This document shows, in pieces, positions 12,757 to 59,466 of a DNA stretch of 64,000 nt. This DNA is from Prevotella sp. (GTDB lineage: Bacteria > Bacteroidota > Bacteroidia > Bacteroidales > Bacteroidaceae): assembly GCA_017619375.1 (NCBI GenBank), contig JAFZSL010000075.1, forward strand, positions 186,001 through 250,000. The letters are read 5' to 3'. A program made the position numbers and the translations under genes. Position 1 is the first letter of the stretch. The number at the start of each line of letters is the position of its first letter. Under the pieces are notes generated by a model. The model ran no database searches. It had not been told where the DNA came from and saw only the letters and a program-made list of their open reading frames with translations.

Positions 12757-12905
12757 TAACCCCATTCCTCTCCCCAAAAACCACCTATCCTCTTATCCTC
12801 TCCAAAAACCACCTATCCTCCCCTAAAACCACCTATTCTTTCCCAAAACCACCTATCCTCTCCTAAAACCACCTATTCTCTCCTAAAACCTCCTATTCTC
12901 TCCAT
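12757..12905 (+). repeat. 20-bp-period tandem array (CCACCTAT family)
   Basis: CCACCTAT(C/T)CTCTCC(C/T)AAAA is repeated. The CCACCTAT cores begin at 12781, 12809, 12829, 12849, 12869 and 12889 (the last is CCTCCTAT), so five cores are spaced by exactly 20 bp, and a degenerate unit precedes them. The array fills the gap between the terminator of the BACON-GH5 gene and the promoter of the GH5_7-like gene. It shares the CCTAT core with arrays at 14297, 18112 and 49331. Confidence 0.85.
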
Positions 12906-14296: not shown

Positions 14297-14396
14297 TCCT
14301 ATATCCACCTATAACCACCTATAACCACCTATAACTACCTACATCTACCTATATCTACCTATAACTACCTATAATCACCTATCCCCACCTATCCCC
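14297..14396 (+). repeat. 10-bp tandem array (ACCTATAACC family), 10 units
   Basis: Ten consecutive 10-bp units of the form (A/T)CCTATANYY start 14 bp after the stop of the GH5_7-like gene and end 19 bp before the next ATG. Units vary at the third-last and last bases but the 10-bp phase is never broken. Same family as the arrays at 12757 and 18112. Confidence 0.9.
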
Positions 14397-14415: not shown

Positions 14416-15696
14416 ATGAGAAAAATATTGACCCTGCTGCTACTCATCGCCTTGCTCACACCGGCACAAGCCCAAATCCGAGGCAACAACATCGTTGTCT
14501 CTGTCACGCCCGACCACAAGGATTGGAACTATGCCATGGGAGAAAAGGCACACTTTGTCGTCAATGTGAGGAGGTCGGGCACGCTGCTCGACAATGTCGA
14601 CGTGGACTATGAGGCAGGCCCCGTGATGTATCCCGAGGTGACAATAAAACATGTCACACTTGCCGAAGGCACAATGAATTGGACCGGCACGATGAAGGAA
14701 CCGGGCTTCTATCGCCTCAAGGTCACCGCTCATGTCGACGGGAAAGACTATGTGGGGCTATGTACCGCCGGTTTCTCGCCGGAAAAAATCGAACCTGCCA
14801 CGCAGTGCCCTGCCGACTTCGATGAGTTCTGGGGCAATGCGCTCAAGGATGCCCGCCAATATGCCCTCGACCCACACAAAACACTACTGCCCGACCGATG
14901 CACGGAGACCGTCAATGTCTATGAGGTGAGTTTTGTCAACAACAAACCTTCCAGCCGCATTTATGGTATCTTGTGTGTCCCTGTCAAACCTGGGAAATAC
15001 CCGGCGTTGCTCAGGGTGCCCGGAGCGGGCGTGCGACCATACAGCGGCGATGTCTATACTGCTTCGCAGGGCGCCATAACCCTTGAAATAGGCATCCACG
15101 GCTTCTCCGTCACCTTGCCGCTCTCCGTCTATGTGGATATGCGCGACGCATGTATGGAAGGGTATTGGGAGAGCAACCTCGACCAACCCGACAAGAACTT
15201 CTACAAACGTGTGGTGGTGGGGGCCGTCAGGGCGGTCGATTACATCGCCTCGCTGCCGGAATGGAATGGCAACGAGGTGGGTGTCTCCGGTGCTTCGCAA
15301 GGTGGGTTCCTCTCCCTCGCCGTTGCCGCCCTCGACAACCGCATCACCTTCCTCGCACCCGTGCACGACGCCATGTGCGACTATGAGGTGGCTCTGAAGA
15401 AAAAGGCTTGTGGATGGCCACACTATTTCTACCAGGTGGACAAGCCTGACATGGATAAAGTGAAGGGCGCACGCTACTACGACGGCATCAATTTCGCACG
15501 ACGCGTCAAATGCCCGGGATGGTATTCTTTCGGCTATAACGACGAGGTGGTGCCGCCATCTTCCGCCTACTCCGTCTACAATGTTGTCAATGCGCCCAAA
15601 ACCCTCAGCATCTATCAAATGACCGGTCATTACTGGTATCAGGAGCAATGGGATGAGTGGGAGGAATGGCTCTTGCAACAGATGCATTTGAGATGA
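14416..15696 (+). CDS. CE7-family acetyl esterase (AXE1-like)
   Basis: 426 residues. The cleavable signal peptide (to PAQAQ) is followed by an N-terminal beta domain (about residues 20-130). An alpha/beta-hydrolase domain of the acetyl xylan esterase AXE1 family then begins near CPADFDEFWGNALKDAR. The nucleophile elbow is GASQGG with Ser294. Downstream are a likely catalytic Asp in FGYNDEVVPPSSAY and a His near TGHYWYQEQW. Family 7 esterases remove acetyl groups from xylo- and other oligosaccharides. In this locus the likely substrate is acetylated mannan or glucomannan oligosaccharide in the periplasm, which would expose chains to the GH26 and GH5 enzymes. Substrate is inferred. Confidence 0.88.
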   Translation: MRKILTLLLLIALLTPAQAQIRGNNIVVSVTPDHKDWNYAMGEKAHFVVNVRRSGTLLDNVDVDYEAGPVMYPEVTIKHVTLAEGTMNWTGTMKEPGFYRLKVTAHVDGKDYVGLCTAGFSPEKIEPATQCPADFDEFWGNALKDARQYALDPHKTLLPDRCTETVNVYEVSFVNNKPSSRIYGILCVPVKPGKYPALLRVPGAGVRPYSGDVYTASQGAITLEIGIHGFSVTLPLSVYVDMRDACMEGYWESNLDQPDKNFYKRVVVGAVRAVDYIASLPEWNGNEVGVSGASQGGFLSLAVAALDNRITFLAPVHDAMCDYEVALKKKACGWPHYFYQVDKPDMDKVKGARYYDGINFARRVKCPGWYSFGYNDEVVPPSSAYSVYNVVNAPKTLSIYQMTGHYWYQEQWDEWEEWLLQQMHLR

Positions 15697-15718
15697 CCCG
15701 CCTGGCCTGTCCGCCCCG

Positions 15719-15754
15719 TCCGATTACTCTGATTATTCCGTACACTCCGAAAAA
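15719..15754 (+). repeat. 9-bp tandem array (TCYGAYNAY family), 4 units
   Basis: Four consecutive 9-mers: TCCGATTAC, TCTGATTAT, TCCGTACAC, TCCGAAAAA. The array ends 8 bp before the ATG of the GH26 gene, so it occupies its leader. The same family occurs at 35680, 40767 and 59368. Confidence 0.75.
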
Positions 15755-15762
15755 GAATCGAT

Positions 15763-16854
15763 ATGAAAAAAATGATTTTGCTGGCGATGACCTTCTCCAT
15801 CATGCTTGCATGCAACACACAGCAGAACACTCCGAAATCCGGCGCCGAGCAACTCCTCGACCGGCTGCAGGCCTTGCAGCAGAAAGGCTATATGTATGGC
15901 CATGAGGATGACCCGTTCTATGGACTCACCTGGGATGGCGACACCATGCCGGGGGTGGAAAGGAGCGACATCCTCTCCACCGTGGGTGACTATCCCGCCG
16001 TCATGGGGTTCGACCTTGGAGGCATAGAGATGGGCGACAATAAAAACTTGGATAGCGTGTCCTTCGTGCGCATACACGACGAAATCGTCAAGCACCATGA
16101 GCGTGGGGGAATCATCACCATCAGTTGGCATCCGAGAAATCCCGTCACCGGAGGTAACGCCTGGGATGTGAGCGACACCACCGTGGTGAGGCAGATCCTG
16201 CAGAACGACTCTGTCAAGGAAAAATTCAACACTTGGATGACAAGGGTGGCCGATTTCCTCAAGACACTCAAGACCGGGAATGGAGACCCGGTGCCCGTCA
16301 TCTTCAGGCCTTGGCATGAGAACAATGGTTCTTGGTTCTGGTGGGGACAAAAACTTTGTTCTGACGAGGAGTTCCATGGACTGTGGGACACCCTTCAGGA
16401 TTTCCTCAAGGGGCAAGGGCTCGACAACCTCATGTGGAGTTACTCGCCCAACCTCGACGGGGGATGGGACGAACAGCGTTTCCTGGCGCGCTATCCCGGC
16501 AACGACCGTGTGCAACTCATCGGCGAGGACGCCTACCAGTGGGGCACGGAGGATGAATTTGTCAAGGCTCTCAACGCCGACCTTGCCTTCCTCTCTGATT
16601 TCGCAAAGAAAAACAACAAGATGATTGCCATGACCGAATGTGGGTTCGTAAACATCCCCGACTCCACATGGTGGACCAGGGTGCTCAAACCTGTCATGGA
16701 CCAATATCCTATCTGCTATTTCCTCACCTGGCGCAACTACAACGGCACCGACAAGGTGGAGTATTTCGCTCCCGACCCCGACCAAGTGAGTGCGGAGGAT
16801 TTCAAAAAACTCTACCAAGCCCCAAATACGTTGTTCCTCAAGGATATACAATAA
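15763..16854 (+). CDS. GH26 endo-beta-1,4-mannanase, lipoprotein
   Basis: 363 residues. The lipobox is IMLAC at residues 13-17. The GH26 barrel has the characteristic acid/base motif RPWHENNGSWFWWG (Glu186) and the nucleophile in MTECGF (Glu292). GYMYGHEDDPFYGLTW at the domain start and WSYSPN are also typical of the family. GH26 enzymes in Bacteroidetes mannan loci cut beta-mannan into mannobiose or short oligosaccharides. With a lipid anchor it could be periplasmic or on the surface. It lies between the esterase and the GH130 phosphorylase, in the usual GH26-GH130-transporter order of mannan catabolic clusters. Confidence 0.93.
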   Translation: MKKMILLAMTFSIMLACNTQQNTPKSGAEQLLDRLQALQQKGYMYGHEDDPFYGLTWDGDTMPGVERSDILSTVGDYPAVMGFDLGGIEMGDNKNLDSVSFVRIHDEIVKHHERGGIITISWHPRNPVTGGNAWDVSDTTVVRQILQNDSVKEKFNTWMTRVADFLKTLKTGNGDPVPVIFRPWHENNGSWFWWGQKLCSDEEFHGLWDTLQDFLKGQGLDNLMWSYSPNLDGGWDEQRFLARYPGNDRVQLIGEDAYQWGTEDEFVKALNADLAFLSDFAKKNNKMIAMTECGFVNIPDSTWWTRVLKPVMDQYPICYFLTWRNYNGTDKVEYFAPDPDQVSAEDFKKLYQAPNTLFLKDIQ

Positions 16855-16929: not shown

Positions 16930-18129
16930 ATGACAACAATGCAAAATAGCCTTTTCCAAGACCGTGTGAAAGCGCTCAAGGCCCGTCACGAAGAACTCCT
17001 CTCCCGGAAAAACGAACCCGTGGAGTGGGGGAATGGCATCTACACCAAGTACAAGAACCCCATTGTCACTGCCGAGCACACTCCGCTAACTTGGCGTTAT
17101 GACTTCAACGAGAAGGACAACCCGCACCTCATGCAGCGCATCATGATGAACGCCACGCTCAATAGCGGTGCCATCAAGTGGAACGACAAGTATGTCATCG
17201 TCGTGCGTGTGGAGGGTGCTGACAGAAAGTCGTTCTTCGCCGTGGCGGAAAGCCCTAACGGCATCGACAACTTCCGCTTCTGGGACGAGCCAATCACCAT
17301 GCCCGAGGATGTCATTCCCGCCACCAACGTCTACGACATGCGTCTCACCGCCCATGAGGATGGGTGGGTCTATGGGGTGTTCTGTGCCGAACGGCACGAC
17401 GACACACAGCCTGGCGACCTCTCCGCCGCCACGGCGACGGCAGGCATCGCTCGCACCAAGGACCTCGTCAACTGGGAGCGGCTTCCCGACCTCAAGGCCC
17501 GGAGTCAGCAGCGCAACGTGGTACTTCACCCGGAGTTCGTGGATGGGAAATATGCTTTTTACACACGACCCCAGGACGGGTTCATCGACACCGGTTCTGG
17601 CGGCGGCATCGGATGGGCGCTGGTGGATGACATCACCCATGCGGAGGTCAAGGAGGAGAAAATCATCAATGCCAGGCACTACCACACCATCATGGAGGTG
17701 AAGAACGGCGAAGGGCCGCACCCCATCAAGACCGACAAGGGATGGCTCCACTTGGCCCATGGCGTCCGCGCATGTGCCAGTGGCCTGCGCTATGTGCTCT
17801 ACATGTATATGACGGCACTCGACGACCCCACCCGTGTCATTGCGCGCCCCGGAGGCTATTTCCTCGTGCCTGAGGGGTGGGAGTACATCGGCGATGTGAT
17901 GAATGTGGTCTTCACCAACGGATGGATAGCCGACGACGACGGGAAAGTGTTCATCTATTACGCCTCCAGCGACACCCGCATGCACGTGGCCACCTCCACC
18001 ATCGAGAAACTCGTCGACTATTGCATGAACACACCGGAGGACGGATTGACGACAGCCTCCAGCGTGGAAACCATCAAGCGCCTCATAGCCAAAAACAAAG
18101 CCTTTGGAGCATCCTATAATCTCCTATAA
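16930..18129 (+). CDS. GH130_1-like 4-O-beta-mannosyl-glucose phosphorylase
   Basis: 399 residues without a signal peptide, so cytoplasmic. It has the five-bladed propeller pattern of GH130, with segments [77 protein letters not shown] and GHGVR-like [17 protein letters not shown]. Asp136 in YDMR corresponds by position to the general acid of characterised family members. The close likeness to Bacteroides MGP suggests phosphorolysis of Man-beta-1,4-Glc to mannose-1-phosphate and glucose. No mannobiose 2-epimerase lies beside it here. The last codons (TCC TAT AAT CTC CTA TAA, giving SYNLL) are made of the 10-bp repeat that continues downstream. Confidence 0.92.
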
Positions 18130-18271
18130 TCACCTACAATCACCTATAATCACCTATAATCATCTATAATCACCTACAATCACCTATAATCACCTATAAT
18201 CACCTATAATCACCTACAATCACCTATAATCACCTACAATCTCCTATAATCTCCTACAATCACCTATAATT
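18112..18271 (+). repeat. 10-bp tandem array (ACCTATAATC), 16 units, overlapping a stop codon
   Basis: Sixteen uninterrupted 10-bp units of (A/T)CCTA(T/C)AATC. The only other changes are one ATCTATAATC and a final T. The first two units encode the last residues and the TAA stop of the GH130 gene (18127-18129). The array ends 40 bp before the transporter start. There are no spacers, so this is not a CRISPR. Confidence 0.95.
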
Positions 18272-19904: not shown

Positions 19905-20023
19905 TCTTGCGGGCAGATGATTTTTTGATATGAAACGACTGATGTCTACCACCTGACAGGACGATTGCTACTCACCATCGTCTTCTGGGCAGCCCTTCGG
20001 CCTTCAAGGTGGGAAACTTCAGT

Positions 20024-20068
20024 GAAAAAACAAGCATGGGAGGCGATGCTTCCCATGCTTGTTTTTTC
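20024..20068 (+). terminator. strong bidirectional terminator hairpin
   Basis: GAAAAAACAAGCATGGGA (20024-20041) pairs perfectly with TCCCATGCTTGTTTTTTC (20051-20068). The T6 run makes a good intrinsic terminator for the mannan locus. The rest of 19905-20267 holds the ssrA promoter and its leader and no gene. Confidence 0.9.
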
Positions 20069-20135
20069 AAGAGGTCGTCCATAAGTCTTCAGCCTAAGTC
20101 TTCAGACAGAAGAAACAAAAAAAGTGGTCTGAAAA

Positions 20136-20167
20136 TTTGGTCGATTAAAAACTATTTCCTACATTTG
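20136..20167 (+). promoter_or_regulatory. promoter of the tmRNA gene
   Basis: TTTG (20136-20139), a 20-bp spacer and TACATTTG (20160-20167) match the Bacteroidetes consensus exactly. Transcription would begin near 20174, about 95 nt before the mature tmRNA 5' end, so a precursor leader is processed. Confidence 0.8.
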
Positions 20168-20267
20168 CAGCCCCAAATGACGGAAAAGAGGTGGAGTGCC
20201 GCCTTGAATGCTCCTTCATCAATGGGATTTTGCAACGTCAAGTCATTGACATCTTGCAAGTTAATCT

Positions 20268-20664
20268 GGGGTTGACTGGATTTGACAGCAAGTTGAGATG
20301 GTACGTAAGCATGCAGAGTGACGGCTGTAGACTCTTCAAAAATTCGGTCAAAAAATTAATTGGCAACAATGAGTATGCTCTCGCTGCCTAATCGAAGTAT
20401 AGTAGATTAAGGCTCAATCCTGCCACCAGGTGACAGGACGAGACGTCGCTCCGAGGGTGTAGTCCCGAATCTGAGGATCAAGCGGCGCAGGCAAATCGGG
20501 AATAGTCATGTTTGGCCTCGCAGGTATGATGAAATTTTAGAGGATAAGGCTCCAGTTGGTGGTCCAGGTCTTGCTGTAGCACGAAAAACAAAGGCTGGAA
20601 TAAGCATGTAGAAAACGTATGGTTTCCTTGTTTGGACGCGGGTTCGATTCCCGCCAGCTCCACA
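20268..20664 (+). ncRNA. ssrA: transfer-messenger RNA (tmRNA)
   Basis: The 5' end GGGGTTGACTGGATTTGACAG is the conserved tmRNA start, and GGGGTTG pairs with CAGCTCC at the 3' end to make the acceptor stem. A T-arm (GCGGG TTCGATT CCCGC) lies just before it. The tag reading frame is 20362-20391, GNNEYALAA followed by TAA. The 3' CCA is not encoded (CTCC is followed by ACA). tmRNA with SmpB rescues stalled ribosomes and tags the nascent peptide for proteolysis. The reading frame 20191-20391 is an artefact of the tag and leader. Confidence 0.97.
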
Positions 20665-20678
20665 ACCCACACATTATT

Positions 20679-20717
20679 AAAGTCGCTAATCCTCAACGGA
20701 TTGGCGACTTTCTTTTT
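20679..20717 (+). terminator. Rho-independent terminator of ssrA
   Basis: AAAGTCGCTAATCC pairs with GGATTGGCGACTTT (one G-U) and is followed by CTTTTT. It lies 15 bp after the tmRNA. Confidence 0.9.
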
Positions 20718-20757
20718 GCTTGAATCAAAAACTCCGTCCTTGTGATTCAGGACAAAA

Positions 20758-21198
20758 CTATTTCCAGATTTCTTCCAATTTCAAAGCGATTTCCTCTGGA
20801 ATGGAAATGCCTGAAGCTTGGGAAGACCACTTAAATGAAGGCGAAATAACTTTAAGTATAGACATTGGTAAAGGCGAATCTTTTATGTCGAGTATTTTAT
20901 CAAACTCTACATAAATATGTTTTGAAAGGTCACCCTTTTCAGCACGATGGTCTTCCCAATGGGGGGACTTGAAAACATTTGTTGCGGCATAACCGCTTGC
21001 TACGATACCTCTTGGGTCTTCGCCTAATCGAATTAAGAAAACCCTGTCCCCCTCTTTGATACTAACGTTAACTCCAGTAGACCAACGTTCAAAAACTTTA
21101 CCAACTTGCTGAATTCGATTCATCAGATCTAAATATCCACCAAGCCTTTCGTTCCAACCCCATCTTTTGGGATTCCATGTTAATAACCAATAGTTCAT
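20758..21198 (-). CDS. orphan EVE/PUA-like domain protein
   Basis: 146 residues, opening MNYWLLTWNPKRWGW, with GDRVFLIRLGEDPRGIVASG at about residues 50-69. These features match the EVE/PUA-like domain that usually forms the N-terminal half of HNH endonucleases in Bacteria; such domains are thought to recognise modified bases. Here the protein stops at the point where the domain normally joins the nuclease part (ends GISIPEEIALKLEEIWK). No HNH coding sequence follows within the next 50 bp before the ssrA terminator. It may be a truncated restriction endonuclease or a functional stand-alone reader. It lies at the 3' side of ssrA in an AT-rich stretch, which suggests horizontal acquisition. Confidence 0.7.
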   Translation of the reverse strand: MNYWLLTWNPKRWGWNERLGGYLDLMNRIQQVGKVFERWSTGVNVSIKEGDRVFLIRLGEDPRGIVASGYAATNVFKSPHWEDHRAEKGDLSKHIYVEFDKILDIKDSPLPMSILKVISPSFKWSSQASGISIPEEIALKLEEIWK

Positions 21199-21251
21199 AT
21201 CATTTTTGTTTTATTTCTCGTGGTCAAATGTGAGGTACCTATATTTTCATC

Positions 21252-21485
21252 TTATTTGTAGCAGATTCCGCACGCGTCACGGCCCAATTCCTTTGCCTTT
21301 GTCAAGGTTACTTTCTCTATGGATTCCGAGCAATTGTTCAGCCCTCGACAATTTTTCGTGCAATGGTATCTCTTCGACTTAGGGCCGGTGCAGATGTACA
21401 CATAGGTTTCATTGGCATGGTTGACCATGTTGTTGGTCGTGGCGTTCCCTGCCAATAGCATTAGGGTCAAAAGTATTGTTTTCAT
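21252..21485 (-). CDS. small secreted Cys-rich protein
   Basis: 77 residues. A probable signal peptide (MKTILLTLMLLAGNATT) precedes a compact domain of the pattern C-x6-YHCTKNCRGLNNC-x(17)-GRDACGICY. The spaced Cys/His residues (YVYICTGPKSKRYHC, CRGLNNC, CGIC) suggest metal binding or disulfides. Similar small domains with YH(C/S)..CRGL..C and GR..C..CY occur widely in Bacteroidetes, with no assigned role as far as I know. It sits 53 bp downstream of the EVE-like gene's start, on the same strand. Confidence 0.65.
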   Translation of the reverse strand: MKTILLTLMLLAGNATTNNMVNHANETYVYICTGPKSKRYHCTKNCRGLNNCSESIEKVTLTKAKELGRDACGICYK

Positions 21486-21556
21486 ATTGTTTTCGTTATG
21501 ATTTGTTGTATGTGTTTTATTCTTTATACATTTTTAATCTTCCTCTTGTTCCTCTT

Positions 21557-21679
21557 CTATTGGGATTGCCCCTCATAATACCCTTCAAAGTATCTTGTTT
21601 CTAAATAGTCATAGTAATCGTTGGAATCATCATGGCCACTTCCGTAGTCATATCCGTTACGACCATCTTCCACCCTTGC
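21557..21679 (-). pseudogene. remnant of a Gly/Tyr/Asp-rich small protein
   Basis: An open frame of 40 codons runs from a stop (21680-21682) to a TAG at 21557, reading ARVEDGRNGYDYGSGHDD, then SNDYYDYLETRYFEGYYEGQ. This looks like the C-terminal end of a real protein but has no ATG; a GTG could only give 38 residues. Probably a decayed gene, part of the AT-rich accessory stretch. Confidence 0.35.
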
Positions 21680-21712
21680 TCATATCCAGGTGAAAGTCAC
21701 AACATCTCTTAG

Positions 21713-22024
21713 TTAATACCCACTTTGCCAATAATAGACAGATATTTTCAAAATAGGTGCAGGAGCAGACAAAACAATCTCATTGAACATTTTTGAATCT
21801 TTTGCCGGATAATACAAGCTTATGATGCCGTCTTCCAGCCATTTCTTAACTTCTTCTATGTTTGTTTCCCTTCGGTAGTCAAGTTCACCGCAACTCGTAT
21901 CTTCTTGAAGGTTGTATTTTTCAGCAAAGTCAAGTGTTGCGCCTTTCATATATTTCAATTCGAAATTCTCATCTGGATGTTTGGACTCAGATGATTTGTA
22001 ATAACTTAATTCTAAAATGTACAT
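21713..22024 (-). CDS. hypothetical protein, 103 aa
   Basis: 103 residues, no signal peptide or membrane segment. It opens MYILELSYYKSSESKHPDEN and ends ILKISVYYWQSGY; the composition is rich in Tyr, Glu and Lys. I do not recognise the family. The two neighbouring minus-strand genes are 230-800 bp downstream, and all share AT-rich codon use unlike the rest of the window. This suggests they arrived together. An immunity-type or small cytoplasmic role is possible but not supported. Confidence 0.55.
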   Translation of the reverse strand: MYILELSYYKSSESKHPDENFELKYMKGATLDFAEKYNLQEDTSCGELDYRRETNIEEVKKWLEDGIISLYYPAKDSKMFNEIVLSAPAPILKISVYYWQSGY

Positions 22025-22317
22025 AGTCTTTTTTCTTTATTGTTTGAGTCAAACATAGTAATTATCATTCGATGTGGAAATTGATTTCTTTTATTCGTAG
22101 GTGATTTTCTACACAATTAGTGTTTTCATTTTCCATGACAAAGATACAACATATGATGGAGAATGCCAAACATTTTCTTTCCTAAGTAAGTGCGTCCTAT
22201 GAAATCTTGCGTTGATTCGACCTATACGCTTCCTTTTTCAAGACGGTCGGAGCAAGCGCTGTATTTCGTCAGGCTTCAAACAAATTGTAGATTCATATAC
22301 ATTTTTCCGCCCGTTTT

Positions 22318-22348
22318 TTTGCAAATAGGAGTTTATGATGTATATTTG
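22318..22348 (+). promoter_or_regulatory. promoter upstream of the 22498 small gene and WG-repeat gene
   Basis: TTTG (22318-22321), a 19-bp spacer and TATATTTG (22341-22348) match the Bacteroidetes consensus exactly. Transcription would start near 22355, giving a leader of about 140 nt. The rest of 22025-22497 shows no convincing gene. Confidence 0.75.
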
Positions 22349-22497
22349 CAGAAAGACTACAAGATGCCAAGACAGGCAGGAATGAATATCGCCACAGCAT
22401 GCCTTTTGTCGTGGCGCTTCACCCATGCACATGGCCTTTGGCTTCAATGTGGGAATTTTCAGTTATAATAGCATTAACCCTTAATACCATTAGAAAG

Positions 22498-34192: not shown

Positions 34193-35824
34193 TTATCTCT
34201 TGACTTCATACCTCACCCATGGCAGGGTGACATATCCTTCGTCGGCCTTCACATTGTAATGGTATACGGCCATGCGTATGCCTTTCCAGAATCCGGCGTT
34301 GACAAAAAACGGTTCGCCTGTGGGAGTGAAGGTCTTGTTGTCAGTGCTGTATGCGAAGCGGAAGTTTTTTCCTGGGATGTCGATGGACAGCCTCAAATAG
34401 AGGGGTTTGCGTCCGTTGATGGCTTTTAACTCCGTCTCGCCCTCGTTGTTTCCACGGTATAGAATGGTTTTCCCGTCGCGTTTCATCACACCCAAGAGTT
34501 CGTTGGTCTTTCCCATGCAAGCGAGTCCCACACGTCCCCCCTCTGCCAGATGGGAAATGTCGAAGGTGGCGACAGCCTCGCTTTCATAACCCATCACCTT
34601 TTGCGTCAACGTGTTGCGTGCTTTCGTGAAATGCCCGGCTTGTAGAGCGTGCAGGGTCAGACTTCCTTTATGTTCCGTCAGCGACCATGCCTCGTTCATC
34701 GGGTTGTGGTTCCATTGCCATTGCGGTGAGAAAATCGTTGTCTCGAATTCGTCGCTTGTCTGGGGTAGGAGAGGGGTGGTGGCAGAGGTGACATGGGGCT
34801 TCTTCCACACGTAAACGGGTTCGCCGATGCCGTTGCGGTCGATGTCTACGCCCATCACCGGCCAGTCGTCCTGCCAATGCATCGGCTGCAGGTGTACCAC
34901 GCGCCCCAAGGCGCCCGCCTCCTGGAAATGGTAGAACCACCACTCGCCCTCCGGCGTGTCGACGATGGCCCCTTGGTGCGGTCCGTTGATGTCGGTGGAA
35001 CCTTGCTCCAACACGACTTTCTTCTCGTAAGGACCGTAGATGTTTTTCGAGCGTAGGATGGTCTGCCATCCGCCGCCTACACCACCCTCGGGGATGGAGA
35101 GGTAGTAAAAGCCATTGCGCTTCAGGAATTTCGTGCCCTCCGCCACGGGACCGGTATAGACCGTCACGCCTTCGTCGAGCAGTTCACGGCCGTCGGCACT
35201 CATCTTGTGGATGATGATGGGCCCCGCTCCGTGGCGGCTGCGTCCCAGGTAGGCTTGGCCGTCTTCATCCCAGAAGGGGCAGGGGTCTTCCCATTTCTCG
35301 ATGGCTTTCAGACAATGGAGCGGACTCCAGGGGCCTTCCGGGTGTTCGGCCTGTGTCATGAAAAGCCCCTCGTCGGGTGTGCAGAAAAACACCCAGAATT
35401 TCCCGTCGTGATATCGGATGGCCGGTGCCCAGGAGCCGCCCGCATAGTGGGCGTTGGCATCCCATCCCGGAAGGTCGAAACGGTCGTACAACTGCGTCAC
35501 CAAGCGCCAGTTCACCATGTCGTCGCTCTCCAGAATCTGCATGCCGATGAAGTGGAAGTCGGAGGCCACCATGTAATATTTCTCCCCCACGCGGATGACG
35601 TCGGGGTCGGAATAGTCGGCATTGAGAACAGGGTTGACATACGTCCCGTTGCCCTGGTCGCCCCACGCAAGGCAGCCACTCCGTTCACTCCGATTATTCA
35701 GTTCACTTCGATTCTTCTGATTATTTTGGTCACTCCGACTCAGATGTGTGCTCTGCGCCATAGCCCCGACGCTGAGAGCCAGCATCACCAATACGGCAGT
35801 TGTGTTTTGGGGTAGTCTTTTCAT
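34193..35824 (-). CDS. GH43-family glycosidase (beta-xylosidase/alpha-arabinofuranosidase type), two-domain
   Basis: 543 residues from the ATG at 35824 (AGGAAAAG upstream); a start at 35896 would put 24 residues before the signal peptide. The signal peptide (to GAMAQ) is followed by a low-complexity linker rich in Asn/Arg/Ser/Glu, which is the 9-bp array at 35680. The GH43 five-bladed propeller begins at VNPVLNADYSDPDVIRVG with the catalytic Asp in DYSDPD and a likely acid region in YYLSIPEGG. A C-terminal concanavalin-like sandwich (from about residue 360, FETTIFSPQWQWNHNP) completes a family architecture. It removes xylose or arabinose side groups from hemicellulose or pectin side chains. 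No locus surrounds it; exact specificity unknown. Confidence 0.88.
   Translation of the reverse strand: MKRLPQNTTAVLVMLALSVGAMAQSTHLSRSDQNNQKNRSELNNRSERSGCLAWGDQGNGTYVNPVLNADYSDPDVIRVGEKYYMVASDFHFIGMQILESDDMVNWRLVTQLYDRFDLPGWDANAHYAGGSWAPAIRYHDGKFWVFFCTPDEGLFMTQAEHPEGPWSPLHCLKAIEKWEDPCPFWDEDGQAYLGRSRHGAGPIIIHKMSADGRELLDEGVTVYTGPVAEGTKFLKRNGFYYLSIPEGGVGGGWQTILRSKNIYGPYEKKVVLEQGSTDINGPHQGAIVDTPEGEWWFYHFQEAGALGRVVHLQPMHWQDDWPVMGVDIDRNGIGEPVYVWKKPHVTSATTPLLPQTSDEFETTIFSPQWQWNHNPMNEAWSLTEHKGSLTLHALQAGHFTKARNTLTQKVMGYESEAVATFDISHLAEGGRVGLACMGKTNELLGVMKRDGKTILYRGNNEGETELKAINGRKPLYLRLSIDIPGKNFRFAYSTDNKTFTPTGEPFFVNAGFWKGIRMAVYHYNVKADEGYVTLPWVRYEVKR
35680..35742. repeat. 9-bp array inside the GH43 coding region, 7 units
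   Basis: Seven consecutive 9-mers on the plus strand: TCCGTTCAC, TCCGATTAT, TCAGTTCAC, TTCGATTCT, TCTGATTAT, TTTGGTCAC, TCCGACTCA. They are in frame with the GH43 gene on the other strand and encode SRSDQNNQKNRSELNNRSER just after the signal peptide. Confidence 0.85.
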
Positions 35825-40148: not shown

Positions 40149-40997
40149 ATGGCGGCATCGAAGGCGATGAAGGGGAGGGTGATGCTTGTCATGGCACTTC
40201 TCCTGCTTGTGATTGACCAGATTATAAAAATCGAGGTCAAGACAAACATGTGCCTGCATGAGTCCATCAAGATTCTCAATTGGTTCTATATCCTCTTCAT
40301 CGAAAACGAAGGGATGGCTTATGGGGCCACCTTCATCAACAAGTTCGTGCTCACTTCGTTTCGCTTCGTGGCGGTCATCGTCCTCGTGTGGTACATCTTC
40401 AAACAGGTGAAAAAAGGGGCGAGATGGACATACCTCGTTCTTCTCACTCTCGTCGCCACGGGGGCTATGGGCAACCTCGTTGATTGTCTCTTCTACGGGA
40501 AGGTGTTCTCTGAGTCGACACCCTATGCCATATCGGAATTCGTGCCTTGGGGCGAGGGGTATGGCGACATGTTCTACGGGAAGGTGGTCGATATGTTCTA
40601 TTTTCCCATCATCAACACCGTGTTGCCCGAATGGGTGCCATTCTACGGAGGTGAGCAGTTCATCTTCTTCAGTCCCATCTTCAATTTCGCCGACTCTTGC
40701 ATCAGCGTGGGAGTAGTGGCACTATTGTTGTTCTGCCGCAAGGAATTGACAGAACTCACATCCTCTTCCGACAATTCCGACGAATCCGACAAGTCCGATG
40801 ATTCCGACAACTCCGATGATTCCGACAAGTCTGATGTCTCCGACAAGTCCGATGTCTCCGACAAGTCAGATGTTTCCGAAAAGTCCGACGATTCCGACAA
40901 GTCTGATGCCTCCGACAAGTCTGACGACTCCGACAAGTCTGACGACTCCGACAAGCAAGATGGTGTCGGTCAAGAGGTTGAAAAAACAAGTGAATGA
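40149..40997 (+). CDS. lspA: lipoprotein signal peptidase (signal peptidase II) with Ser-Asp repeat tail
   Basis: 282 residues; only about 205 form the enzyme. The aspartyl protease motifs are intact: GAMGNLVDC (Asp112) and FNFADSCISVG (Asp182), and VIDQIIKIEVK near the N terminus is the usual first motif. Four membrane helices are seen. It cleaves lipoprotein signal peptides in the inner membrane, which this genome needs for its many lipoproteins. After the last helix (VGVVALLLFC) comes a tail of about 75 residues with SDKSDDSDNSDDSDKSD-type repeats, encoded by a 21-unit 9-bp array. Such a tail is not part of LspA. It starts 2 bp after the dksA-like stop and its stop overlaps the next start. 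Confidence 0.93.
   Translation: MAASKAMKGRVMLVMALLLLVIDQIIKIEVKTNMCLHESIKILNWFYILFIENEGMAYGATFINKFVLTSFRFVAVIVLVWYIFKQVKKGARWTYLVLLTLVATGAMGNLVDCLFYGKVFSESTPYAISEFVPWGEGYGDMFYGKVVDMFYFPIINTVLPEWVPFYGGEQFIFFSPIFNFADSCISVGVVALLLFCRKELTELTSSSDNSDESDKSDDSDNSDDSDKSDVSDKSDVSDKSDVSEKSDDSDKSDASDKSDDSDKSDDSDKQDGVGQEVEKTSE
40767..40955 (+). repeat. 9-bp array in lspA, 21 units, encoding the SD tail
   Basis: Exactly 21 units of 9 bp (189 bp) of the form TC(C/T)GA(C/T)NN(N), starting TCCGACAAT and ending TCCGACAAG. Pairs of units make an 18-bp higher-order repeat TCTGACGACTCCGACAAG (Ser-Asp-Asp-Ser-Asp-Lys). The frame is kept by the length of the unit. Confidence 0.95.
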
Positions 40998-45405: not shown

Positions 45406-45430
45406 CGGGACGACAATCCAGAAGTCGTAG

Positions 45431-45451
45431 GGGCGGGACTTGTGCCCGCCC
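45431..45451. repeat. GC-rich palindrome (REP-like)
   Basis: GGGCGGG (45431-45437) pairs with CCCGCCC (45445-45451) around ACTTGTG. Such palindromes are frequent in Bacteroidetes intergenic regions. It may act as a weak terminator after the C69 gene. Confidence 0.55.
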
Positions 45452-45510
45452 GATTTTGCCGACTGCGCCAAGGAAGTTCTGTCGTTTTTGCGCCAAGAAT
45501 GACACCAAGA

Positions 45511-49330: not shown

Positions 49331-49420
49331 TGATCTATAGTAGGTTGTTATAGGTTGTTTTAGGATTCCTATTATCTTCCTATCACTACCTATCACTACC
49401 TATTCCTCCTACATCTTCCT
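49331..49420. repeat. 10-bp-period CCTAT/ATAGG array overlapping the hisC stop
   Basis: TTCCTATCAC, TACCTATCAC, TACCTATTCC, TCCTACATCT on the right and AGGTTGTTAT, AGGTTGTTTT, AGGATTCCTA on the left make two 10-bp arrays in opposite orientation. The right arm enters the 3' end of hisC (stop at 49409-49411). Confidence 0.75.
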
Positions 49421-56170: not shown

Positions 56171-56397
56171 ATTTTTTGTAAAAAAACTATTTTGACTTGA
56201 TTGTTGTGACTTGGTTTCTTCATGACTGCAACGAGGTCACAGCTACAGTAAAAACGAACACGTGCCTTAAACTCCCTAAACAAGCAGACATATGTCCCTT
56301 TCCCGGGGGTTGACACCCCCGTCTGTGTTCTGTCACCCCTTCAGGGTTGGTGTGAATTGGCTTGTTGTCCCCTCCTGATACAAACAGACATACGTCC

Positions 56398-56538
56398 CTT
56401 TAACTCCTCTTTAACTCCCCTTTAACTCCCTTTTAACTCCTGAAACAAGCGGTCCCTTTAACTCCTCCCCCTCTGCCCGAGAGGGGTTGGCTGCAGGCCG
56501 GGGGCGAGGGAGAACTCCCCTTTAACTCCCCTTCAACT
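56398..56538 (-). repeat. 11-bp GGAGTTAAAGG array overlapping the uvrA stop
   Basis: On the plus strand TTTAACTCC(T/C)(C) repeats at 56398-56440 with an 11-bp period, again at 56456 and at 56520-56538. The last units cover the end of uvrA, whose final codons (GAG TTG AAG GGG AGT TAA) have the same sequence as the repeat unit GGGGAGTTAAAG, so the array may have grown from this gene end. Confidence 0.75.
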
Positions 56539-59350
56539 CCAGCACTTCCTTGAGATATTTCCCCGTGATGCTTTCCTTGCATTTCACCAAATCCTCCGGT
56601 GTTCCGGCAAACACCAGGTTGCCGCCCTTGTCGCCGCCGTCGGGTCCAAGGTCGATGACATGGTCGGCGCATTTCACCACTTCGAGGTTATGCTCTATCA
56701 CCAGGATGGTGTGTCCTCTCAAAATCAGTGCTTGGAAGGCTTCGAGCAATTTGCGGATGTCGTGGAAATGCAGGCCGGTGGTAGGTTCGTCGAAGATGAA
56801 CAAGGTGGGGTCTTGACGCTCTTGGCCGATGAAATAGGCCAGTTTCACACGCTGGTTCTCGCCACCAGAGAGAGTAGATGAACTTTGTCCCAGTTTGATG
56901 TAGCCCAACCCCACATCCTCCAAGGGTTGGAGACGCTTGGAGATGACGCCTTGGTTGTTGGCGTTGAAAAACTCTATGGCTTCCGAAACCGTCATGTCGA
57001 GCACCTCGTTGATGTTCTTGCCGGCGAATTTCACCTCCAGGATGTCGTGCTTGAAACGTTGGCCGTGGCAGGCTTCACATTCCAACTCCAGGTCGGCCAT
57101 GAACTGCATCTCCACCGTGATGACTCCGGCACCCTTGCACTCCTCGCAACGTCCACCGTCGGCGTTGAAGGAGAAATACTGGGCAGAGAAACCCATCTGG
57201 CGGGACAGTTGCTGTTCGGCGAACAATTGGCGAATGGCGTCGTAGGCCTTCACATAGGTGGCGGGGTTGCTGCGGCTGCTCTTGCCGATGGGGTTCTGAT
57301 CGACGAACTCCACGCGGCTCACCTGTTGCCAGTCGCCATCGAGGGCGAGGTATTCACCTGGGGCGTCGCACACGTCGCCGAGGTGTCGCTTCAATGCGGG
57401 ATAGAGGATGCCGCTGACAAGCGATGACTTCCCGCTGCCGCTCACACCTGTCACTACGGTGAACACGTTGAGCGGTATCAGCACGTCGATGCCGTGAAGG
57501 TTGTTCATACGGGCGCCACGGATGGTGATGTATTGGTTCCAAGGGCGGCGGCTCGAGGGGACGGGGATGGTCTCTTGATGGGTGAGGTATTTCACCGTAT
57601 AGCTGTTGGGGTACTTCTCCAAAGACTGCGCACACACCTCGGAGGCATTGCCCTCGAAAACAATCTCCCCTCCAAGGCGGCCGGCGTCGGGACCGATGTC
57701 GATGAGGTAGTCAGCGGCTCGCATGAACTCCTCGTCATGCTCCACCACAATCACCGTGTTGCCTATCGACTGTAGGTCCTTGAGAACGTTGATGAGACGA
57801 TGGGTGTCGCGGCAGTGCAGCCCGATGCTGGGTTCGTCGAGGATGTAGAGCGACCCTACGAGCGAACTGCCCAATGAAGTGGTGAGGTTGATGCGCTGGC
57901 TCTCACCGCCGCTTAGCGTGTTAGACTGTCGGTTGAGGGTGAGGTAGCCCAGGCCTACATCGTCAAGGAAACGGAGACGGTTGTTGATTTCCGTGAGAAG
58001 TCGTTTGGCTATCTCCTGCTCGTGTTCTTCCAGTTGAAGGTTGAGGAACCATTGGCGCAGGCTCCATATCGGCATCTCCACCAAGTCGGAAATGCTCTTG
58101 CCGGCTATCTGGACGTAGCCGGACTCTTTCTTCAGGCGGGTGCCGTGACATTCCGGACAGATGGTCTTGCCTTTGTAGCGACTCATCATCACCCGGTATT
58201 GAATCTTGTATTGGTTCTCTTGGACCATCGCAAAGAAGGCGTCGATGGACACTTGTTCGTGGATGTCAAGGTCGAGCTCGCCAGGCAGGCCATGCCACAA
58301 CCAGTCCTTCTCCTTACGCGACAGTTCAAGGTAGGGCTTGAAGATGGGGAAGTTGTGACGTGAGGCGCGACGACAAAACTCATCTTGCCAAAGTTTCATC
58401 TTCTCACCATGCCAGCACTGCACACAACCGTCATAGACGCTCAGCGTGGTGTTGGGAATCACCAAGCGTTCATCGATGCCCAATACACGCCCGTAACCCT
58501 CGCAGCGTGGACAGGCACCCACGGGGGAGTTGAACGAGAACATGTTGTCGCTGGGTTCCTCGAAAATCATCCCGTCGGCTTCGAAACGCATGGAGAAGTC
58601 ATAGGAGATGTTGGAGGGGAGGAACGTCAAGCGGCATTCGCCGTCTCCCTCGAAAAGAGCGGTCTCGCACGAGTCGGTCAGGCGTGAGAGGCTGTCGGGG
58701 CTGCCGTCCACGGAGAGGCGGTCGATGAGTACGTAGATGTCGGAGGGAGTGGTGGAGGAGAGTGCTGGGGTGTCGGCCAGGAAATCATCTATCCGCACGA
58801 ACTGCCCCTTGACAAACAACCTGACGAAACCTTGTTGCAGTTCCATCTGCAACTGCTTTTCCAACGTTCGGCCTTCGGGGACGTGCAGGGGAGCCATCAC
58901 GCAGAACCGCGTGCCGGGAGAGTATTGGAGCACCTGTTGGATGATGTCGTCGATGGAATGCTTCTTCACCAGGCATCCGCTAACGGGGGAATAGGTCTTG
59001 CCGATGCGGGCGAAGAGGAGACGCAGGTATTCATAAATCTCAGTGGATGTACCCACCGTGGAACGAGGGTTACGACTGATGACGCGCTGCTCGATGGCTA
59101 TGGCAGGGGGAAGGCCTTTGATGTAGTCGCATTCTGGCTTGCTCATACGGCCGAGGAATTGGCGGGCGTAAGAGGAGAGACTCTCCACATAGCGTCGCTG
59201 ACCCTCGGCATACAAGGTGTCGAAGGCAAGTGATGACTTGCCGCTGCCGCTGACGCCTGCCACCACGACCAACTTCCCGTGGGGAATGCGCACATCGATG
59301 TTCTTCAGGTTGTTCACCCGAGCACCCTTCACTTCGATTTCCTTCCTCAT
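56522..59350 (-). CDS. uvrA: excinuclease ABC subunit A
   Basis: 942 residues, normal length. Both ATPase halves are complete: Walker A GVSGSGKSSLAFDTLY and GVSGSGKSSLVSGILY, signature motifs LSGGESQRI and LSGGENQRV, and Walker B ILDEPSIGLHCRD and IFDEPTTGLHFHD. Zinc-finger cysteines are visible in CPECHGTRLKKES and CEECKGAG..CEACHGQRF. UvrA finds bulky DNA lesions with UvrB in nucleotide excision repair. It lies 188 bp after the phosphate acyltransferase gene. Both its 5' leader (array 59368) and its 3' end (array 56398) carry tandem repeats. Confidence 0.97.
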   Translation of the reverse strand: MRKEIEVKGARVNNLKNIDVRIPHGKLVVVAGVSGSGKSSLAFDTLYAEGQRRYVESLSSYARQFLGRMSKPECDYIKGLPPAIAIEQRVISRNPRSTVGTSTEIYEYLRLLFARIGKTYSPVSGCLVKKHSIDDIIQQVLQYSPGTRFCVMAPLHVPEGRTLEKQLQMELQQGFVRLFVKGQFVRIDDFLADTPALSSTTPSDIYVLIDRLSVDGSPDSLSRLTDSCETALFEGDGECRLTFLPSNISYDFSMRFEADGMIFEEPSDNMFSFNSPVGACPRCEGYGRVLGIDERLVIPNTTLSVYDGCVQCWHGEKMKLWQDEFCRRASRHNFPIFKPYLELSRKEKDWLWHGLPGELDLDIHEQVSIDAFFAMVQENQYKIQYRVMMSRYKGKTICPECHGTRLKKESGYVQIAGKSISDLVEMPIWSLRQWFLNLQLEEHEQEIAKRLLTEINNRLRFLDDVGLGYLTLNRQSNTLSGGESQRINLTTSLGSSLVGSLYILDEPSIGLHCRDTHRLINVLKDLQSIGNTVIVVEHDEEFMRAADYLIDIGPDAGRLGGEIVFEGNASEVCAQSLEKYPNSYTVKYLTHQETIPVPSSRRPWNQYITIRGARMNNLHGIDVLIPLNVFTVVTGVSGSGKSSLVSGILYPALKRHLGDVCDAPGEYLALDGDWQQVSRVEFVDQNPIGKSSRSNPATYVKAYDAIRQLFAEQQLSRQMGFSAQYFSFNADGGRCEECKGAGVITVEMQFMADLELECEACHGQRFKHDILEVKFAGKNINEVLDMTVSEAIEFFNANNQGVISKRLQPLEDVGLGYIKLGQSSSTLSGGENQRVKLAYFIGQERQDPTLFIFDEPTTGLHFHDIRKLLEAFQALILRGHTILVIEHNLEVVKCADHVIDLGPDGGDKGGNLVFAGTPEDLVKCKESITGKYLKEVLELKGS

Positions 59351-59367: not shown

Positions 59368-59466
59368 TCCAATCACTCTGATTACTCTGACGACTTCGAT
59401 TGTTCTGACTATTCCGACAACTCCGACTACTCTGATTACTTAGATTTTTCTAATTACTCTGACAGA
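59368..59466. repeat. 9-bp array in the uvrA leader, 11 units
   Basis: Eleven consecutive 9-mers: TCCAATCAC, TCTGATTAC, TCTGACGAC, TTCGATTGT, TCTGACTAT, TCCGACAAC, TCCGACTAC, TCTGATTAC, TTAGATTTT, TCTAATTAC, TCTGACAGA. It lies 18-116 bp before the uvrA start on the opposite strand sense and 72 bp after the stop of the acyltransferase gene. Confidence 0.9.

Follow-up and report, generated by a model that had tools for sequence, protein, structure and literature searches.

The lspA gene of a Prevotellaceae genome (signal peptidase II, PF01252; 40149..40997, plus strand) ends in a tail of 9-bp repeats, and repeats of the same consensus stand at three further places nearby. This raises the question of what kind of element is present, how it has come to be dispersed, and whether anything beyond slippage maintains it. 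The window, here the whole stretch of 64,000 nucleotides that was analysed (G000:C16:186001-250000), belongs to a genome of 4.26 Mb, referred to below as G000. The best matches of its LspA are found in Prevotellaceae metagenome bins, with RUG13201 at the top (85% identity over the best segment), and RUG13201, here G040, served as the sister genome for comparison. Genes were called with a simple codon-usage caller, and their exact starts are uncertain.

Four arrays of one unit

The array in lspA (40767..40955, plus strand) lies in sense orientation in the C-terminal tail of the gene and codes for an acidic stretch in which Ser-(Asp/Glu)-x is repeated 21 times, with Asp in 20 units and Glu in one. 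Further arrays were located, all on the plus strand, at 15710..15754 (four to five units, two of them clean), 35680..35742 (seven degenerate units) and 59368..59466 (11 units). An earlier note, made from the sequence alone, had described arrays of one consensus at 15719, 35680, 40767 and 59368; all four were recovered, in register and without indels, with an exact period and with variation between units mainly at positions 3, 6, 7 and 9. The note had placed two arrays in leaders and two in coding DNA. This was borne out for the coding pair, 35680 and 40767, the former lying antisense in a GH43 gene on the minus strand (34193-35785), at residues 15-35 and directly after the apparent signal peptide of the protein. 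The assignment to leaders did not hold in that form: the array at 15719 occupies a 66-bp gap between the same-strand genes 14416-15696 and 15763-16854 (GH26), and the array at 59368 has a minus-strand gene on either side, in a gap of 187 bp, and lies 17 bp upstream of one of them, a UvrA-type gene (56522-59350) to which, as this gene is on the minus strand, it is antisense. A two-unit pattern with at most two mismatches was found 34 times in the window, where 1.41 matches would be expected; a count of 34 was reached in 0 of 100 shuffles. No Rfam family reached its gathering score over the window arrays.

Short-period arrays of other kinds share this DNA. A 20-bp (2 x 10) array of another family lies at 12794..12903 (plus strand, intergenic), 10-bp arrays are located at 14298..14392 (CCTATAACCA; plus strand, in the gap before the gene at 14416) and at 18113..18270 (CCTATAATCA; plus strand, overlapping the 3' end of gene 16939-18129), another short-period array sits in the spacer at 49341..49403, and 11-bp arrays of CCCTTTAACTC, whose left flank is recurrent, extend over 56396..56540 (plus strand). 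In a 464-kb sample of G000, 52 of the 231 spacers of at least 25 bp hold a short-period array. Scored against reversed controls, the 11-bp family reached 8 vs 0 in G000 and 21 vs 0 in G040, and the 10-bp family 6 vs 4 and 6 vs 2; with counts this near the control, the 10-bp family is poorly separated from chance by this scorer. A REP-like palindrome (GGGGCGGG...CCCGCCC) is present at 45417-45453 and has dozens of near-identical copies in G040. The 2.6 kb at 19905-22497 contain a tmRNA and no called gene, at a GC content of 0.41 compared to 0.52 for the window.

Abundance and placement in the genome

The core of the 9-bp family can be written as TC-N-GA-NN-A-N, or TCNGANNAN, and was counted genome-wide with the reversed pattern or the reversed sequence as control for pattern counts and chain scores. 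Three units of TCYGAYNAY, with at most three mismatches, gave 114+62 matches in G000 and 1+10 for the backwards pattern. Three units of TCNGANNAN, with the free positions left open and at most one mismatch, gave 105+98 in G000 against 0+2 for the reversed pattern, and 288+288 in G040 against 1+1, forward and reverse counts being equal there. Recurrence at unlinked places far beyond chance, as the earlier note had claimed, is thereby supported both in the window and across the genome; the contrary outcome that the note had itself named, a motif no commoner genome-wide than chance, was checked and is not what these counts give. A chain scorer run on the 464 kb, which had been picked without regard to arrays, detected 16 arrays at a score of at least 20 and 15 at a score of 22, each time against one in reversed sequence; by extrapolation from the 16, about 150 arrays would be present genome-wide. 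The margin was weaker on contigs C2 and C3 of G040 (386 kb), with 11 vs 4 at a score of 22. A scan without preset motif ranked TC.GA..A joint first among 9-bp spacer cores in both genomes, with small counts of four spacers in G000 and five in G040 compared to at most one after shuffling. Isolated units showed no clear enrichment over the control, with counts of 7 vs 5 for spacers and 87 vs 61 for genes; arrayed units numbered 44 vs 3. The signal is a property of arrays. A DNA uptake sequence was rejected on the same counts, as isolated units are not strongly over-represented.

At a score of at least 25, in the 464-kb sample together with stretches chosen for holding arrays, 36 arrays of G000 are intergenic and 10 are coding (n=46). 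The 34 intergenic arrays for which both neighbours were called occupy 25 same-strand, six convergent and three divergent gaps; divergent gaps account for 33% of the spacer bases in the 464-kb sample, and arrays are depleted there (P=0.001). In the same-strand gaps (n=25) the start of the downstream gene is a median of 89 bp away from the array and the stop of the upstream gene 29 bp, and neither closeness to this stop (17/25, p=0.11) nor a strand preference in these spacers (17 sense vs 8 antisense, p=0.11) was significant. Arrays inside genes occupy hydrophilic stretches. The sense coding arrays are read as Ser-Asp-x in all four cases, the antisense ones in a frame of the Asn-(Arg/Gln)-Ser type in five of six. 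Among six array-bearing proteins scanned against Pfam, the array lies outside the matched domains in four (LspA, the GH43 glycosidase, a topoisomerase IV/gyrase A-type protein and a TPR protein) and inside in one, a GH106-type protein with two arrays within its domain match; the sixth had no match.

The frame of the sense arrays would fit another origin of the consensus, namely independent local slippage at each locus combined with codon-like selection for Ser-Asp-x peptides, TCN GAN NAN being codon-degenerate. TAA and TAG are, in agreement with this, somewhat rarer than expected in the intergenic units of G000 (6/85 vs 18/94, p=0.03). However, most of the scored arrays are non-coding (36/46), among intergenic arrays an in-frame ATG with read-through occurs in only 8 of 36 in G000 and 1 of 11 in the sister, and in G040, G122 and G055 stops are not significantly avoided, so that we consider this explanation very improbable. 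Hidden small genes within the intergenic arrays find no support either, as the arrays mostly have no open frame with a start. Expansion driven by hairpins, as in CNG triplets, could be envisaged because TCNGA is self-complementary; the core of the unit forms a short palindrome, and some arrays contain inverted junctions. Against this, the folds of five 9-bp arrays did not clearly exceed shuffled sequences in stability (z from -0.42 to +2.95), making such a mechanism exceedingly unlikely. For the single strands of these five arrays at 37 C, which are unstructured, hairpin slippage is contradicted and was rejected.

Change between sister species and spread among relatives

Approximately 63 kb of aligned G000/G040 DNA were compared. 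Ten own arrays were examined, leaving out a weak coding match in the aligned DNA (C30:37690), and seven of them have an array at the same site in the sister, mostly with another number of units: lspA, 59368, C30:32235, C30:40520, C30:87643, C32:14896 and C32:23015. Counted from the sister, seven of nine loci in the aligned DNA are common to both. The lspA tail comprises 21 units in G000 and seven to eight in the sister; no such tail was seen in more distant relatives among the LspA sequences read, from which the incomplete L090 was left out. At 59368 the sister carries a degenerate four-unit array beside the same UvrA-type gene, matched by one flank only. Three own loci remain. The array at 35680 is eroded to two unit-like remnants in the sister; C30:88144 has no array in the sister, the linker at this site being replaced between the two; and C30:33650, with 11 units in the sister, is doubtful because the three units in G000 are weak and on the opposite strand, in a spacer which there holds a 7-bp array. 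One sister gene is longer by exactly 27 bp next to a 9-bp-periodic stretch, at a position without a scored array in G000, and this clean difference of exactly three units, or nine residues, bears out the earlier proposal that 9-bp units keep the reading frame and may grow inside genes. Taken together, the absence at C30:88144, the spacer at C30:33650 and the unmatched 27-bp gain indicate that loci do appear or vanish.

The positions of the unit do not change equally. In six orthologous arrays the core positions 1, 2, 4, 5 and 8 differ at 25 of 287 sites, the free positions 3, 6, 7 and 9 at 60 of 226 (p=8e-8) and the flanks at 68 of 406 (core vs flanks, p=0.002), with the qualification that arrays in G040 were detected by a core-based scorer, which inflates the apparent conservation of the core, and that repeat alignment is ambiguous. 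In the four non-coding arrays the corresponding figures are 18/214, 48/170 and 40/252, and this lower change of the core would, judged from the aligned sequences, not be expected of neutral debris; in the two coding arrays core and free positions did not differ significantly (7/73 vs 12/56, p=0.08). The earlier suggestion of selection for the motif thus gains some support, from the lower change of TC-GA--A between the sisters and from the presence of the core in other genera.

The earlier note had also suggested a mobile or copied repeat, and mobile or templated copying (by a MITE, retro-copying or templated repair) could place units at new sites. The unit TCCGATCAC occurs at 10 of 24 G040 loci, several of which were fetched for their resemblance to own arrays, and at 0 of 44 own loci (p=7e-6), and on contigs C2, C3 and C18 alone the ratio is still 4/10 vs 0/44 (p=7e-4). 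This bias would be consistent with copying; however, GATC is about fivefold under-represented in the samples of both genomes (0.18 of expectation in G000 and 0.20 in G040), as if it were avoided because of restriction, and a relaxed avoidance in G040 could therefore yield TCCGATCAC in parallel. The order of units gives a similarly divided picture. Over 35 arrays the longest run shared between loci averages 9.86, more than in all 30 shuffles of units within arrays (mean 9.50, SD 0.13) but less than the mean of 10.01 for shuffles of pooled units, and five locus pairs share at least 22 bases, compared to at most four in 30 pooled shuffles, although five is also the maximum among the within-array shuffles. 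The 11-bp arrays of G040 would also fit copying: those with CCCTTTAACTC on C18 (L151-L153; window 56280-56400) have a recurrent left flank ending in CATATGTCCC, and four of the five spacers that hold 11-bp arrays in the aligned part of C18 are without them in the window. Another 11-bp array, adjoining C32:23015, is missing from the sister. The 9-bp arrays, in contrast, revealed neither common flanks nor inverted-repeat ends by eye (35 arrays), and in the aligned loci, where most of the examined own arrays are common to both species, no clear target duplication was apparent at an insertion, the linker at C30:88144 being replaced and the 27-bp gain lying beside a 9-bp-periodic stretch.

Templating by a reverse transcriptase of the DRT type was rejected, as no linked repeat template and, for the RT_UG26 protein tested, no co-occurrence was found. 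G000 has two reverse transcriptases of the RVT_1 family, one of the group II intron type and one of the RT_UG26 type (L257, G000:C44:23349-23969), and within about 1.5 kb of both, a single sub-threshold two-unit match (score 14) was all that was detected. The RT_UG26 protein is present in 1 of 23 relatives tested and in neither of the array-rich genomes G040 and G002. Mobile or templated copying is a distinctly improbable source of the 9-bp arrays; the earlier suggestion of mobility has weak support, and for block copying between loci the evidence is mixed.

Of the 121 genomes sampled from the taxonomic family, G000 among them, 25, from 10 of 30 genera, contain at least one exact three-unit match and the other 96 none, the distribution hence being patchy; the control was zero in 115 of the 121, and G096, G108 and G132 gave control matches (4+4 to 7+8) without pattern matches. 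Among 23 congeners, 20 have at most six loose matches, often not exceeding the control, and higher numbers were obtained for G002 (49+54), G019 (12) and G008 (11). The free positions differ by species, with TCCGATTAC in G000, TCCGAYCAC in G040, TCTGATTAC in G002, TCGGAGTAA in G100 and TCNGACCAG in G055. G055 displays a regular, dyad-symmetric four-unit form of 34 bp with 93 matches (at most three mismatches, overlapping matches counted) vs 0 in the control, mostly intergenic and often present two or three times at a spacing of about 55 bp. This form had no match in five sampled congeners of G055, in G050 and in G100, and weak matches only in G000 (3) and G040 (5).

Among the matches listed, arrays look regionally clustered in G055:C5, G055:C2 and G122:C1 (802-899 kb), the last with at least 10 loci within 97 kb of a 2.92-Mb contig. 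In G122, 72 minus-strand matches were counted, none beyond about 0.81 Mb among the matches listed, from which we make no claim about strand, and sampling of GC skew to place the array clusters of this genome gave no clear picture. Contigs C61, C71 and C146 of G002 end in 9-bp arrays or within about 40 bp of them; assemblies may thus break at arrays, and unit numbers may be understated.

A fixed core with positions that vary by species might be speculated to be a recognised site, at which TCNGA, spaced at 9 bp, is read by a putative protein that binds DNA or RNA, so that selection keeps the core while the other positions and the unit number are tuned in each species. The low divergence of the core, also in non-coding arrays, would fit such a role, as would its occurrence across genera in which the other positions have changed, and the regular dyad form of G055. 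On the other hand, isolated units are not clearly enriched, most genomes and most congeners have few matches or none, arrays are depleted in divergent gaps, where promoters lie, homogenisation of units could produce an equal constraint, and the difference between core and free positions is not significant in the coding arrays. We therefore regard a recognised site as possible, though unlikely. The more far-reaching proposal that TCNGA every 9 bp constitutes a recognition code in the spacers of part of the taxonomic family, with a putative protein reading the core, the other positions drifting by species and the 34-bp dyad of G055 as a highly ordered form, appears improbable.

The arrays are dispersed, their loci are mostly conserved, their unit number changes, and their core has changed less between the two species. 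One core at dozens of unlinked loci is not accounted for by slippage alone, and neither is its recurrence in other genera. With a probability of roughly 0.58, we favour the view that the arrays form an old, slippage-driven and dispersed family of 9-bp short tandem repeats with the core TCNGANNAN, constrained or homogenised, which is present in this Prevotellaceae species and some relatives and to which the four window arrays belong. In keeping with this view, units resemble each other more inside a locus than across loci (5.75 vs 5.38 of 9 in G000, 6.55 vs 6.06 in G040). In such a family, the number of units would change within each array through replication slippage or unequal exchange, arrays would stay where their harm is small, and units may be partly homogenised or selected across loci.

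Relation to known repeats and significance

Arrays of 9 bp in Prevotella were not found in the literature searched, mostly without subscription journals, and we do not claim their absence from print. Several known systems can nevertheless be compared. STRR of cyanobacteria are dispersed families of short tandem repeats, and REP and BIME elements are dispersed, mostly intergenic palindromic repeats. The latter are resembled by the 34-bp dyad element of G055 with its dispersed, mostly intergenic palindromic consensus; the arrays of G000 differ from such palindromes in varying in length and in having no stable fold (five folded) or fixed ends. BrickBuilt repeats reportedly stand in the same order at several sites of one genome. 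According to the accessible part of its description, BrickBuilt is a 23-nt minisatellite inside a MITE of Porphyromonas gingivalis and is similar to the present arrays in being an intergenic tandem repeat at several sites of one genome (PMC4596501). It has, however, a leader and a tail with inverted ends, none of which were seen for the 9-bp arrays, and the 11-bp arrays with their recurrent left flank come closer to it (PMC4596501, accessible part).

The closest likeness is to repeats of the STRR and TAACTGA kind, which the 9-bp arrays fit as direct repeats at many unlinked loci, mainly intergenic, with a unit number that varies between relatives, here at the level of species. TAACTGA heptamers form direct repeats in Beggiatoaceae, cyanobacteria and some Bacteroidetes and, in the parts of the source available, are described from many mostly intergenic places, with a patchy taxonomic spread, no evident mechanism of transfer and some of the copies lying within genes or at their ends; certain Bacteroidetes have relatives that share the gene neighbourhood without obvious repeats (MacGregor 2015, PMC4679880). 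Both systems thus consist of one short unit in direct repeats, mostly intergenic, patchy and partly within genes. As far as that partial text goes, they differ in unit length (7 bp compared to the 9 bp of TCNGANNAN), in variability, related heptamers being rarely repeated whereas four positions of the 9-bp unit vary, and in location, the majority of TAACTGA copies in the main genome lying no more than several nucleotides upstream of start codons, in contrast to the 9-bp arrays in same-strand gaps, which have no significant nearness to gene ends (PMC4679880). For long simple sequence repeats of prokaryotes, the same source, in its accessible part, mentions proposed change by slippage and tolerance of multiples of three in genes (PMC4679880). 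The 9-bp arrays are like these repeats and STRR, to the extent covered there, in forming dispersed short tandem repeat families in which multiples of three are tolerated in genes, and differ in unit length, sequence, a fixed core with free positions and recurrence across genera. They are best filed with the dispersed short tandem repeats of bacteria (TAACTGA, STRR), as a variant in which part of the unit is free.

The spacers of a group of gut and rumen bacteria accordingly hold fast-changing short satellites with periods of 7, 9, 10 and 11 bp. Such loci could serve as strain markers and may break assemblies, and within genes the arrays give proteins acidic segments, as in LspA and a topoisomerase A-type subunit. 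With a conserved non-coding core, a sister species and a relative with an ordered form at hand, the question of whether these repeats are debris or signal becomes testable.
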